Translations under genes and position numbers: made by a program | Part shown: positions 12,396 to 46,813 of the stretch, piece by piece | Layout: each line of letters opens with the position of its first letter | Position numbering within the stretch: position 1 is the stretch's first letter | Notes under the pieces: generated by a model | The model's database searches: none | What the model saw: the letters and a program-made list of their open reading frames with translations, nothing else | Told to the model about the DNA's origin: nothing | NCBI RefSeq assembly: GCF_003626645.1 | Contig: NZ_RBAM01000008.1 | Span: 248,001 to 312,000, forward strand | Length of the DNA: 64,000 bases | Direction: 5' to 3' | DNA from: Streptomyces klenkii | GTDB taxonomy: Bacteria > Actinomycetota > Actinomycetes > Streptomycetales > Streptomycetaceae

Positions 12396-12404
12396 GCCCA
12401 ATGA

Positions 12405-12431
12405 TTAGCACTCGACCACCCCGAGTGCAAG
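12405..12431 (-). promoter_or_regulatory. CIRCE operator 1 (HrcA), distal
   Basis: Read on the groEL strand: CTTGCACTC (7/9), a 9-nt spacer, then GAGTGCTAA (9/9). The strong arms of the two CIRCE copies face each other, so together they also form a perfect 9-bp inverted repeat. Confidence 0.8.
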
Positions 12432-12511
12432 CGGTTCACCCTGGAGGGGACACGAGGGACCCGGAAGAGCAAAAGAGAGCCGTACCCACACAGAGGTACC
12501 CGCACACGCGC

Positions 12512-12546
12512 GAGGGGTCCGCACCTCAATGAGGTGCGGACCCCTC
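12512..12546 (-). terminator. strong hairpin downstream of the cold-shock gene
   Basis: GAGGGGTCCGCACCTCA pairs perfectly with TGAGGTGCGGACCCCTC around a single central base, 35 bp before the csp stop. It separates csp transcription from the groEL promoter. Confidence 0.8.
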
Positions 12547-12581
12547 CGCAAACCGAGCGAGCCGGTGGTCGATGCGCCGCG

Positions 12582-12788
12582 TCAGACCTGCGACAGCTTC
12601 ACCATGTCCGCCTGCGGCCCCTTCTGGCCCTGCGAGATCTCGAACTCGACCCGCTGACCCTCCTCGAGGGTGCGGTAACCGTCCATCTGAATCGCGCTGT
12701 AGTGGACGAATACATCCGCACCACCGTCGACCGCGATGAAGCCGTAGCCCTTCTCCGCGTTGAACCACTTGACGGTGCCCTGAGCCAT
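12582..12788 (-). CDS. CspA-family cold-shock protein
   Basis: This 68-aa single OB-fold nucleic-acid chaperone carries KGYGFIAV (RNP1) and VFVHYSAI (RNP2) with the usual aromatic RNA-binding surface. Length and sequence are typical of the 7-kDa Streptomyces cold-shock proteins. GGGGAG lies 6 nt before ATG. A long leader of up to 340 nt precedes it and may carry cold-responsive structure. A very strong terminator follows. Confidence 0.97.
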
Positions 12789-13130
12789 GCCTAACTCCCC
12801 TATTACTGGCCCTTGCGCAGGACCGCACTTCGCGGACCCGGGTCAGACCTCACCCCTGGCAGCCCAGTGGGTGTGCGCCGGAACGCGTCGACCGCGGCTG
12901 AATGTATCTGCACGGATGCCGTCTGCAACAGGTCACTCGGACGAGAATTCCGGGCATGGCCGATCGAGAGAAACGGCTGAACTCCGGGTATTTCAGGGCA
13001 AGTCGGGCCGGGAAAAACACAACCAACCCGGCATTTCGTGCACACACTTCGCGCACAACTTGACGGGTTCTCATATGCGTTCGGCACTGACGCCGGGCGG
13101 GGATCGCCTCAACTGTATCGCGCTCAACAG
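12789..13130 (-). other. long intergenic leader of the cold-shock gene
   Basis: About 340 bases hold no credible gene. Reading frames present lack ribosome sites and biased codons. The stretch probably carries the csp promoter and 5' leader. I could not define the boxes. Confidence 0.5.
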
Positions 13131-13171
13131 CCGGAATCGCCCCGTCCGTTTTACGGACGGGGCGATTCCGG
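13131..13171 (-). terminator. 19-bp hairpin after the MoaD/ThiS gene
   Basis: A perfect 19-bp stem (13131-13149 with 13153-13171) and TTT loop lies 40 bp beyond the carrier-protein stop. The stem reads CCGGAATCGCCCCGTCCGT on one arm. It is probably the terminator of the thrC-moaD unit. Confidence 0.8.
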
Positions 13172-13210
13172 GGGCGTCATGCGGCAATAACGGAAGAACC
13201 CTGTGAAACC

Positions 13211-13486
13211 TCAGCCGCCGGCGACGGCAGGGATGACGGAGACGGCGGAGCCGGCGGGGGTGGGGGTCTGGAGGCCCTGCTCGAAGCGGACGTCGTCGTC
13301 GTTGACGTACACGTTCACGAACCGGCGCAGCTTGCCGCTGTCGTCGAGCACGCGGGCGGCGACGCCGGTGTGGTCGGCCTCGAGGGACTGGATCACCTCG
13401 GAGAGGGTCGCGCCCTCGGCGGAGACCTCGGCCTTCCCGCCGGTGTAGGTGCGCAGGATGGTGGGGATGCGGACGGTGACGCTCAT
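13211..13486 (-). CDS. MoaD/ThiS-family sulfur-carrier protein
   Basis: This 91-aa ubiquitin-like protein ends in VAGG, the Gly-Gly terminus that is adenylated and thiocarboxylated in sulfur carriers. IPTILRTYTGG opens the beta-grasp fold and FVNVYVNDDDVR is the conserved central strand. It lies 97 bp downstream of threonine synthase on the same strand and shares its terminator. The related actinobacterial carrier CysO serves cysteine synthesis, which would fit the SAM-responsive leader upstream, but the partner enzyme is not in this window. Confidence 0.88.
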   Translation of the reverse strand: MSVTVRIPTILRTYTGGKAEVSAEGATLSEVIQSLEADHTGVAARVLDDSGKLRRFVNVYVNDDDVRFEQGLQTPTPAGSAVSVIPAVAGG

Positions 13487-13583
13487 GGGGAAGCTCCTTC
13501 GAAACAATGCGAAACAAGTTGTGGGCAGGCGGCAGGCGTTACCCGCGCGGCCGGAGGAGGGTGGGCGCAAGGGCCCGCAGGCG

Positions 13584-14867
13584 TCAGCCGGCGGCAAGGC
13601 CCGCGGCGCGGAACGCCTCCAGCGACGGCCGGATCGTCGCCGTCGGACCCGCCGCGACGGCGTCGAGCGTCTTCAGCCCGTCCCCGGTGTTCAGCACGAC
13701 CGTGGTCAGGGACGGATCGAGCACCCCGTCCTCGATGAGCTTCTTGGTGACTCCCACGGTCACCCCGCCCGCCGTCTCGGCGAAGATCCCCTCGGTCCGG
13801 GCGAGCAGCCGGATCGCGTCCACGATCTGCTCGTCGGTGACGTCCTCCACCGCCCCGCCCGTCCGCCGCGCGATGTCCAGCACGTACGGCCCGTCCGCCG
13901 GGTTGCCGATGGCCAGTGACTTGGCGATCGTGTCCGGCTTCACGGGCCGTACGACGTCGTGCCCGTCCTTGAAGGCGCGCGAGACCGGCGAGCACCCTTC
14001 CGCCTGCGCGCCGAAGATCCGGTACGGCCGGTCCTCGACCAGCCCGAGCGCGACGAGCTCCTTCAGCCCCTTGTCGATCTTCGTGAGCTGGGAGCCGGAG
14101 GCGATCGGCACCACGATCTGGTCCGGCAGCCGCCACCCGAGCTGCTCGCAGATCTCGTAGGCGAGGGTCTTGGAGCCCTCGCCGTAGTACGGCCGGAGGT
14201 TGACGTTGACGAAGCCCCAGCCCTCCCCCAGCGGATCGCCGATGAGCTCGCTGCAGAAGCGGTTGACGTCGTCGTACGTGCCTTCGATGCCGACGAGGTC
14301 GCCGCCGTAGACCGCGGCCATGACGACCTTCCCGGCCTCCAGGTCGTGCGGGATGAACACGCAGGACCGGAATCCGGCGCGGGCGGCCGCGGCCCCGACC
14401 GCTCCGGCGAGGTTGCCGGTGGAGGAGCACGACAGGGTCGTGAAGCCGAAGGCGCGGGCGGCCTCGACCGCGATCGCGACCACCCGGTCCTTGAAAGAGT
14501 GCGTCGGGTTGCCGGAGTCGTCCTTGACGTACAGGCCGCCGGTCACGCCCAGCTCGCGGGCGAGGTTGTCCGCCTTGACGAGCTTGGTGAAGCCGGGGTT
14601 GAGGCCGGGCTTGTCCGCCACGTCGGCGGGGACGGGCAGCAGCGGGGCGTAGCGCCAGATGTTTGCGGGGCCGGCCTCGATCCGCCGCCGCAGTGCCTCG
14701 GGGTCGCCGGCGGGCAGCTCGTAGGCGATTTCGAGGGGGCCGAAGCACAGGGCGCAGGCGAAAATGGGGCTGAGGGGGAAGCGCTCTCCGCACTCGCGGC
14801 AGGAGAGCGCCGCGGCGGGTCCGAGGTCCACAGAAGTGGTAGAGGGTTCAACAGACTGCACAGCCAT
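13584..14867 (-). CDS. thrC: threonine synthase
   Basis: This PLP enzyme converts O-phosphohomoserine to threonine. The 427-aa protein begins with a zinc-ribbon-like CRECG...CALC segment, then shows SGNPTHSFKDR, which holds the PLP lysine. LSCSSTGNLAGAVGA is the phosphate-binding loop and VVPIASGSQLTKIDKG comes later. This is the archaeal/actinobacterial thrC class. The ATG at 14867 is chosen because GAGGAGAAAGGG precedes it and a SAM-I riboswitch ends just upstream. High SAM would be expected to lower expression, balancing the methionine and threonine branches. Confidence 0.95.
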   Translation of the reverse strand: MAVQSVEPSTTSVDLGPAAALSCRECGERFPLSPIFACALCFGPLEIAYELPAGDPEALRRRIEAGPANIWRYAPLLPVPADVADKPGLNPGFTKLVKADNLARELGVTGGLYVKDDSGNPTHSFKDRVVAIAVEAARAFGFTTLSCSSTGNLAGAVGAAAARAGFRSCVFIPHDLEAGKVVMAAVYGGDLVGIEGTYDDVNRFCSELIGDPLGEGWGFVNVNLRPYYGEGSKTLAYEICEQLGWRLPDQIVVPIASGSQLTKIDKGLKELVALGLVEDRPYRIFGAQAEGCSPVSRAFKDGHDVVRPVKPDTIAKSLAIGNPADGPYVLDIARRTGGAVEDVTDEQIVDAIRLLARTEGIFAETAGGVTVGVTKKLIEDGVLDPSLTTVVLNTGDGLKTLDAVAAGPTATIRPSLEAFRAAGLAAG

Positions 14868-14886
14868 GGAGGCGAGGCCCTTTCTC

Positions 14887-15031
14887 CTCATCTTCCTCGC
14901 GGCGTACGTCGCCACGAGACGGAATTGGCACCTTCCCCGCCGGGAGCCTCGCATCGAACGATGTCGACGGAGACCGGCTGGAGGGTTGCCGGGGCTTCAA
15001 CGGGCCGTGTCCCTCTGCCCCTCTGGATGAG
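14887..15031 (-). promoter_or_regulatory. SAM-I (S-box) riboswitch upstream of thrC
   Basis: On the minus strand the leader shows the S-box landmarks in order: P1 5' arm CTCATC followed by CAGAGGGGCAGAGGGAC, the core CCCGTTGAAGCCCCGGCAACC, a variable arm, AAGGTGCCAATTCC, and a 3' arm GATGAG. P1 pairs over 14887-14892 and 15026-15031. The closing arm abuts the thrC ribosome site (GGAG), so control is probably translational. No terminator stem is evident. Confidence 0.88.
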
Positions 15032-15207
15032 CGGTATGGCGCTGGGCGGGGCCCAGGCGTTTGTGGCACGCGGTGACCCCGACATAGGACGGCGGTCCGC
15101 GTTGTTCAAGACTGTAACGGAAGCGATGGCCCGTTGAGAGGGCCGTCCGTAAGGCGAGATGCGTCACAGCGCATCGCGGCAGCGCATCACAACGAGGAGT
15201 CGTACAC

Positions 15208-16182
15208 GTGCTGGAAGAGGTGGAGCGCTGGCTGGCCGAGCGGTCCTGGTCGGCTGCTGATCGTCCGCTCGACGTGCTTCTGGCCACCAAACGGGAGTCC
15301 GGCACGACGGTGAGCGTCGTCCTGCCCGCGCTGAACGAAGAGCCGACGGTGGGCGAGATCGTGGCGGTGATCCGCCGCGAGCTGATGACGGACGCGGTGC
15401 CGCTGGTGGACGAGCTGGTGGTCGTCGACTCGGGCTCCACGGACCGTACGGCCGAGGTGGCCGCGGCGGCCGGGGCGCGCGTGGTGCACCGCGACGAGCT
15501 GCTGCCCGGCCTGCCCGCCGTGCCCGGCAAGGGCGAGGTCCTCTGGCGCTCGCTGCTCGCGACGACGGGCGACGTCGTGGCCTTCGTCGACGCCGACCTG
15601 CGCGAGTTCTCGGCGGATTTCGTGTCCGGGATCGTCGGCCCGCTGCTGACCGACCCGGGCGTGCAGTTCGTCAAGGCGATGTACGACCGCCCGCTGGGCC
15701 CGGAGTTCGGCGTCCCCGGTGCCGCACGGGCCGCGGGCCAGGGCGGCCGGGTCACCGAGCTCGTCGCCCGCCCCCTGCTGAACCTGCACTGGCCGCAGCT
15801 GGCCGGCTTCGTCCAGCCGCTGGGCGGCGAGTACGCGGCCCGCCGGTCGCTCCTCGAACGGCTGCCGTTCCCCGTCGGCTACGGCGTGGAACTGGGCCTT
15901 CTGGTGGACGCGCTGCACACGGTGGGGCTGGACGCGCTGGCCCAGGTGGACGTGGGCGTGCGCAAGCACCGCCACCAGGACGGGCAGGCGCTCGGCCGGA
16001 TGGCCGCCGCGATCTACCGCACCGCGCAGCTCCGGCTGGCCCGCGGGCACCTGGTGCGACCTGCGCTCACGCAGTTCGAGCGGACCGCGGAGGGCTTCGT
16101 TCCGCGGACGTACGCGGTGGACACCGAGGAGCGTCCGCCGATGGCCGGAATACCCGAGTACGCGAAGCGGCACGCCGCGTAA
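15208..16182 (+). CDS. gpgS: glucosyl-3-phosphoglycerate synthase (GT81-type)
   Basis: This 324-aa family-2/81 glycosyltransferase transfers glucose from NDP-glucose to 3-phosphoglycerate, the first step to glucosylglycerate. VSVVLPALNEEPTVGEIV is the nucleotide-binding start, VVDSGSTDRT and VAFVDADLRE (the DXD metal motif) follow, and GYGVELGLLVD lies in the acceptor domain. GTG follows GAGGAG. No phosphatase (gpgP) is adjacent; the next gene is a trehalose-phosphate synthase, 41 bp away. The neighbourhood is therefore compatible-solute synthesis. Confidence 0.9.
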   Translation: MLEEVERWLAERSWSAADRPLDVLLATKRESGTTVSVVLPALNEEPTVGEIVAVIRRELMTDAVPLVDELVVVDSGSTDRTAEVAAAAGARVVHRDELLPGLPAVPGKGEVLWRSLLATTGDVVAFVDADLREFSADFVSGIVGPLLTDPGVQFVKAMYDRPLGPEFGVPGAARAAGQGGRVTELVARPLLNLHWPQLAGFVQPLGGEYAARRSLLERLPFPVGYGVELGLLVDALHTVGLDALAQVDVGVRKHRHQDGQALGRMAAAIYRTAQLRLARGHLVRPALTQFERTAEGFVPRTYAVDTEERPPMAGIPEYAKRHAA

Positions 16183-46745: not shown

Positions 46746-46761
46746 ATTGGACTGGACCACT
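46746..46761 (+). promoter_or_regulatory. dre (DasR) site upstream of msiK
   Basis: ATTGGACTGGACCACT matches 13 of 16 dre positions. It overlaps a perfect 12-bp palindrome, GTCCAATTGGAC (46741-46752), and lies 52 bp before the msiK start. Confidence 0.75.
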
Positions 46762-46813
46762 CCCTCTACTCGGATCGTCCGGCACGTTCCTGCCGGTGAA
46801 GGGACTCATCACC

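Follow-up and report, generated by a model that had tools for sequence, protein, structure and literature searches.

A SAM-I riboswitch lies on the minus strand of a 64,000-nt stretch of the Streptomyces klenkii genome (the whole stretch analyzed, hereinafter designated the window), and in all likelihood it occupies the leader of a metM-metO operon that makes homocysteine from O-phosphohomoserine, with SAM exerting feedback on translation. This reading is based on the aptamer itself, the gene order, the linkage of riboswitch and gene across the class, a separate threonine synthase (ThrC) in the same genome and the lack of a convincing MetX or MetA there; the chemistry of MetM is taken from the literature. 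A previous sequence-only reading of the same DNA had named threonine synthase as the target of the riboswitch, a label that is very probably wrong for the riboswitch-linked gene.

The aptamer and the genes it precedes

The presence of a SAM-I riboswitch in the window is confirmed. Scanning the whole window with cmscan returned a minus-strand match to RF00162 at 15033-14885 (78.3 bits, E 9.9e-17), well above the gathering score of 44.4 bits, which bears out the search with the Rfam SAM covariance model that had been proposed for this site. The aptamer (14885..15033) spans all 108 model positions, is non-standard only at the two outermost P1 positions, and contains the S-box core, the P1 arms and the GGTGCCAATTCC segment that the sequence-only reading had described. 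The limits given there, 14887-15031, coincide exactly with both ends of the P1 helix, whose six pairs join CTCATC (15031-15026) to GATGAG (14892-14887) on the minus strand; the strand was not named, and both the riboswitch and its target gene are on the minus strand. Compared with the RF00162 model, all core elements are shared and the P3 loop is longer (the alignment as printed omits 39 letters there against 5 model positions). No second RF00162 copy was found when the entire 8.23-Mb genome (246 contigs, completeness estimate 100%) was searched.

Covariation was examined in 41 aptamers, namely that of the window and 40 selected in other class genomes. The alignment contains 46 invariant columns; of the 28 consensus pairs, 13 have one or more compensatory (two-sided) changes, most such cells lying in P4, and 14 pairs never vary, five in P1 and nine in other helices. 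The invariance of five of the six P1 pairs, whereas P4 covaries, is at most a hint that the P1 strand may be under a second constraint, because the nine pairs of other helices never vary either. A pseudoknot between L2 and J3/4 is a feature of SAM-I riboswitches, and GGC and GCC segments compatible with it are invariant or nearly so among the 41 sequences, without covariation. Judged by its sequence, the aptamer of this strain would be expected to bind SAM.

A 17-nt link (14868..14884, minus strand) leads from the aptamer to a gene for a 427-residue PLP enzyme with an N-terminal CxxC...CxxC segment (13584..14867, minus strand; TIGR00260, 264.7 bits, and PF00291), which we assign as a metM homologue. 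After a spacing of 97 nt follows a metO homologue on the same strand, encoding a 91-residue MoaD/ThiS-type sulfur carrier with a Gly-Gly end (13211..13486; PF02597, 59.1 bits). The two genes are probably co-transcribed, and the carrier gene, for which control by the riboswitch had earlier been raised as a possibility, very probably belongs to the controlled unit. Nearest to MetO of the window among solved chains are 4n6e, a ThiS/MoaD family protein, and 3dwg chain C, which is labeled as 9.5 kDa culture filtrate antigen cfp10A and which we take to be CysO.

Farther downstream on the minus strand are a cold-shock protein gene (12582..12788; CSD, PF00313), not known to belong to the metM-metO unit, and then groEL; a divergent glucosyl-3-phosphoglycerate synthase homologue is at 15208 on the plus strand. 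No promoter-like site was detected in a scan of 12400-15250, and the one terminator-like site in that scan, at 12499, is no more than expected by chance. An msiK RNA motif (RF01747; cmscan, 52.7 bits) is present elsewhere in the window, at 46754-46811 on the plus strand; in S. lividans this motif is described, in the available part of the source, as preceding a sugar-uptake gene (PMC8079986).

MetM and ThrC in the genome and across the class

If the riboswitch gene were a genuine second threonine synthase, SAM would regulate threonine flux, and the family models do give the protein that name: the NCBIfam threonine synthase equivalog TIGR00260 accepts it with 264.7 bits against a cut-off of 167.1, which counts against the metM reading, and NF006050, also named threonine synthase, gives 259.1 bits, under its cut-off of 303. 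The corresponding annotation in S. lividans likewise reads 'threonine biosynthesis' (PMC8079986, available text), and threonine synthase activity is described for a MetM homologue of Microcystis (PMC12172450, available text). Set against these points, the genome encodes a second homologue of the PLP enzyme, at 37% identity, which is the canonical ThrC and sits between the homoserine dehydrogenase and homoserine kinase genes in a hom-thrC-thrB cluster (named by sequence recognition), and all 45 genomes sampled from the class contain a match to this ThrC at E ≤ 1e-60. A FastTree phylogeny of 40 MetM and 30 ThrC rows, with the genome's own CysM-like protein as outgroup, gathers MetM (support 0.728) and ThrC (support 0.985) into a single group each; locus L035, where the match covers only 288 residues and the DNA holds a stretch of N, was left out. 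Between the same 40 and 30 rows, 39 positions carry residues that differ between the groups and are fixed to at least 95% in each, and four N-terminal cysteines present in 40/40 aligned MetM rows stand opposite gaps in 30/30 ThrC rows. The gene is also adjoined by a sulfur carrier, for which we know of no use in threonine synthesis, and resides in a genome without convincing MetX or MetA. A second threonine synthase is therefore highly improbable on this evidence, and the pair matches MetM-MetO instead. The earlier proposal that SAM is coupled to flux between methionine and threonine holds insofar as the enzyme stands at that branch point, but its place is on the methionine side.

The assignment of the window gene as canonical ThrC was tried and rejected, as the protein groups apart from the ThrC of the class and lacks its fixed residues despite passing TIGR00260. 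Our literature search on active-site residues of threonine synthase returned nothing usable.

Judged on the MetX and MetA/HTS models, the genome has no acylhomoserine route. The best MetX match reaches 24.6 bits over 44 positions, compared with about 398-449 bits for MetX of the class among the matches listed, and MetA/HTS gave no match in the genome; the curated MetX cut-off of 500 is passed by 0/296 class genomes and is thus of no use here. Two strong matches of the cystathionine gamma-synthase type (498 and 267 bits) count against metM being the sole route, and other routes to homocysteine are possible because of them.

Among 296 class genomes, 193 have a MetM homologue (E ≤ 1e-70) and 202 have RF00162 (E ≤ 0.001), 200 of the latter with a match over the family cut-off. 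RF00162 is found in 191/193 genomes with MetM versus 11/103 without, and MetX (E ≤ 1e-40) in 93/103 genomes without MetM versus 89/193 with it; both sets of counts ignore shared ancestry, and the Fisher P values of these associations are descriptive for the same reason. The two genomes with MetM and no RF00162 are 78% and 76% complete, and 92 of the 296 have neither. Within the genus, MetM and RF00162 are both present in 28/28 genomes and MetX in 7/28. In 119 of 120 genomes the riboswitch immediately precedes metM in the same orientation, the distance to the matched start being 4-91 nt, the sample being those of the 191 genomes with both in which both places are among the matches listed; in the one exception (G074) the listed riboswitch is on a different contig and the genome has a second riboswitch match. 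When named genomes were searched with the PLP enzyme and the best 80 loci taken, all 80 were titled Streptomyces, headed by S. roseoverticillatus at 95% identity, and RF00162 was found upstream in 15/15 of these loci run through cmscan. As a separate observation, 11 class genomes harbor RF00162 and no MetM homologue.

Of 120 loci (the best 80 Streptomyces loci and 40 class loci), 112 have the carrier gene adjoining metM in the same orientation. The single Streptomyces locus lacking it (79/80 have it) is cut by a contig end, and the seven class loci without it (33/40 have it) count against the metM-metO reading. In these seven, with frames read by eye, the next gene is csp in L032 and L034, groEL in L039 and L046, and neither of the two in the other three; metM genomes without an adjacent metO may use CysO or another carrier.

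We take SCO4293 to be a metM orthologue, and Hasebe and colleagues are said to have identified in 2024 the thiocarboxylate of MetO as the sulfur donor. MetM of Streptomyces was identified as a previously unrecognized homocysteine synthase (Hasebe et al. 2024, AEM 90:e01247-24, 10.1128/aem.01247-24, via the available text of PMC12172450), and according to that text (PMC12172450, 2025) the enzyme forms homocysteine from O-phosphohomoserine and protects S. albulus from methionine auxotrophy, with a SAM riboswitch upstream of metM. Likened by description, the window shares with the S. albulus locus the threonine-synthase-like gene, the carrier gene metO and the upstream SAM riboswitch, and no difference was found within what the available text describes. 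In Microcystis, according to the same source, a gene with a sulfur-carrier annotation is similar to metO of S. albulus, and a homologue sharing 51.6% identity with S. albulus MetM has threonine synthase and deaminase activity, with no rise in methionine and no SAM riboswitch (PMC12172450, available text); these results count against a simple one-function reading of the MetM family. For S. lividans, a table whose heading presents its elements as RNA-seq-validated (PMC8079986, 2021) places RF00162 before SLIV_16930-SLIV_16925 under 'threonine biosynthesis', and 21/22 tabled elements are highly transcribed, the available text leaving unstated whether RF00162 is among the 21; by description, RF00162 precedes two genes there as in the window. 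The link between the riboswitch and metM is already known, since earlier papers list RF00162 before the two S. lividans genes and tie the riboswitch to metM, and what we describe is most likely routine feedback regulation in a pathway that came to light only recently.

Other reports bear on the same genes in the parts available. ArgR binds upstream of SCO4293, described as a putative threonine synthase (PMC3293853, 2012); no conserved RNA element was found for methionine operons of Actinobacteria (PMC1262725, 2005), and streptomycetes are described as lacking a SAM riboswitch at metE, metH and metK (PMC4365011, 2015). The mycobacterial CysM-CysO-Mec system also combines a PLP enzyme with a MoaD-like carrier, but makes cysteine from O-phosphoserine (PMC3227635, available text), and the genome studied here has its own, separate mec-cysO-cysM-like cluster (L007, G000:C19:51755-55027; named by recognition).

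Probable control at the ribosome-binding site

In 40/40 parsed leaders, 8-20 nt lie between the end of P1 and the start codon, a geometry that favors the translational control suggested by the sequence-only reading. SAM-I switches of Bacillota mostly terminate transcription, and by that precedent the riboswitch would act through transcription termination or Rho. Compared with Bacillus SAM-I riboswitches and their terminators, however, the window has only 17 nt from aptamer to start, and so no terminator. Premature termination is also discussed by the S. lividans authors as a general riboswitch mode (PMC8079986, available text). The scan of 12400-15250 detected no terminator-like site between aptamer and gene, although such a simple scan may miss Rho-dependent and some other terminators. 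The short spacing and the lack of such a site make a terminator improbable, so that control through termination or Rho appears unlikely and translational feedback is the most likely mode. Our literature search for SAM-I expression platforms in Streptomyces returned nothing usable.

The closing stem had also been thought to touch the ribosome site. This is supported to the extent that the likely Shine-Dalgarno sequence, AGAAAGG (14885-14879, minus strand; chosen by eye), begins 1 nt after P1, whereas P1 hiding it is not seen in the Streptomyces folding test. The best anti-Shine-Dalgarno site shares at least 1 nt with the P1 strand in 38/40 leaders, in a pairing search that put no spacing limit within 28 nt, and in 10/40 the P1 helix extends into positions -14 to -5; L020 was left out of the Shine-Dalgarno and folding counts because its frame was not parsed. 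Across the 30 leaders where the test was computable, positions -14 to -5 were no costlier to open when P1 was forced than otherwise (mean 3.86 versus 3.99 kcal/mol; dearer in 8/30 leaders), which counts against P1 hiding the ribosome site. Given this result, simple base-pair competition does not explain how a SAM-bound P1 would lower translation in Streptomyces; a helix abutting the Shine-Dalgarno sequence would more plausibly hinder the 30S subunit sterically. The duplex search picked AAGATGAGGAGA as the Shine-Dalgarno sequence of the window, a candidate that overlaps P1 and is long-spaced; AGAAAGG was judged likelier by eye and kept because of the search's lack of a spacing limit.

Regulation of the opposite sign can be envisaged, in which the 3' strand of P1, freed when SAM is scarce, pairs with the nucleotides leading up to the start codon and thereby masks the ribosome site, so that SAM switches expression on. 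When the P1 strand is left free, folding is better than in 90% of shuffles for 10 of 30 leaders from outside the genus (about 3 expected), but for only 1 of 10 Streptomyces leaders, the pairing may reflect nothing but a purine-rich Shine-Dalgarno sequence next to a pyrimidine-rich spacer, and the logic of feedback demands an OFF switch. An ON switch is thus very unlikely, and we infer an OFF direction acting at the translational step. Under such OFF control, plentiful SAM would bind the aptamer and stabilize P1 immediately 5' of the ribosome-binding site, lowering the translation of metM and, by way of metM, that of metO. The enzyme so controlled, a threonine synthase paralogue, would draw O-phosphohomoserine off the threonine pathway, and thiocarboxylated MetO would hand its sulfur to MetM, yielding homocysteine and from it methionine and SAM.

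MetO tails and what the locus means

MetO encoded beside MetM ends in Gly-Gly in 53 of 112 loci, in Gly-Gly-Cys in 58 and in Gly-Gly-Ala-Val in one. The 79 Streptomyces loci comprise 47 with the cysteine, 31 with bare Gly-Gly and the Ala-Val case, and the 33 class loci 11 and 22 with Cys and Gly-Gly, respectively; the terminal cysteine codon is TGC in 57 and TGT in one. MetO of the window ends in bare Gly-Gly (13211-13219), and the cysteine tail concerns its relatives. On a MetM FastTree of 112 rows (the 112 MetO loci and the window, with one dropped for a stop in its MetM translation), 111 of them labeled and the Ala-Val row unlabeled, the raw count of switches between Gly-Gly and Gly-Gly-Cys is at least 18.

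CysO-type carriers differ in their ends. Among the best 30 loci of a 45-genome class search, 11 have bare ends and 19 varied tails, and none of these 30 best-scoring carriers has a single-cysteine tail. The CysO of the separate cysteine cluster in the S. klenkii genome is encoded with two residues (Met-Ser) past Gly-Gly and so would need trimming.

Mec hydrolyses the CysO-cysteine adduct (PMC3227635, available text). A Gly-Gly-Cys end encoded in the gene is chemically the same group as that adduct and is thus a possible Mec substrate, and we tentatively suggest, as a conjecture we hold doubtful, that Gly-Gly-Cys MetO may be a pro-form that needs trimming by Mec before thiocarboxylation. Were this so, methionine synthesis would be tied to the peptidase of the cysteine pathway. 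None of the paper titles listed by a literature search concerns MetO tails, and the 2024 MetM paper could mention them; the Gly-Gly-Cys ends may be newer than the rest of our findings.

For the locus as a whole, a misleading label is corrected: the riboswitch gene very probably encodes the homocysteine-forming enzyme of a sulfur-carrier pathway and not a threonine synthase. SAM feedback would then act on methionine synthesis at the point where methionine and threonine part. The linkage across the class (191/193) suggests that RF00162 may serve as an annotation marker separating MetM from ThrC, and the class set offers a large natural collection for a SAM-I switch with almost no expression platform.
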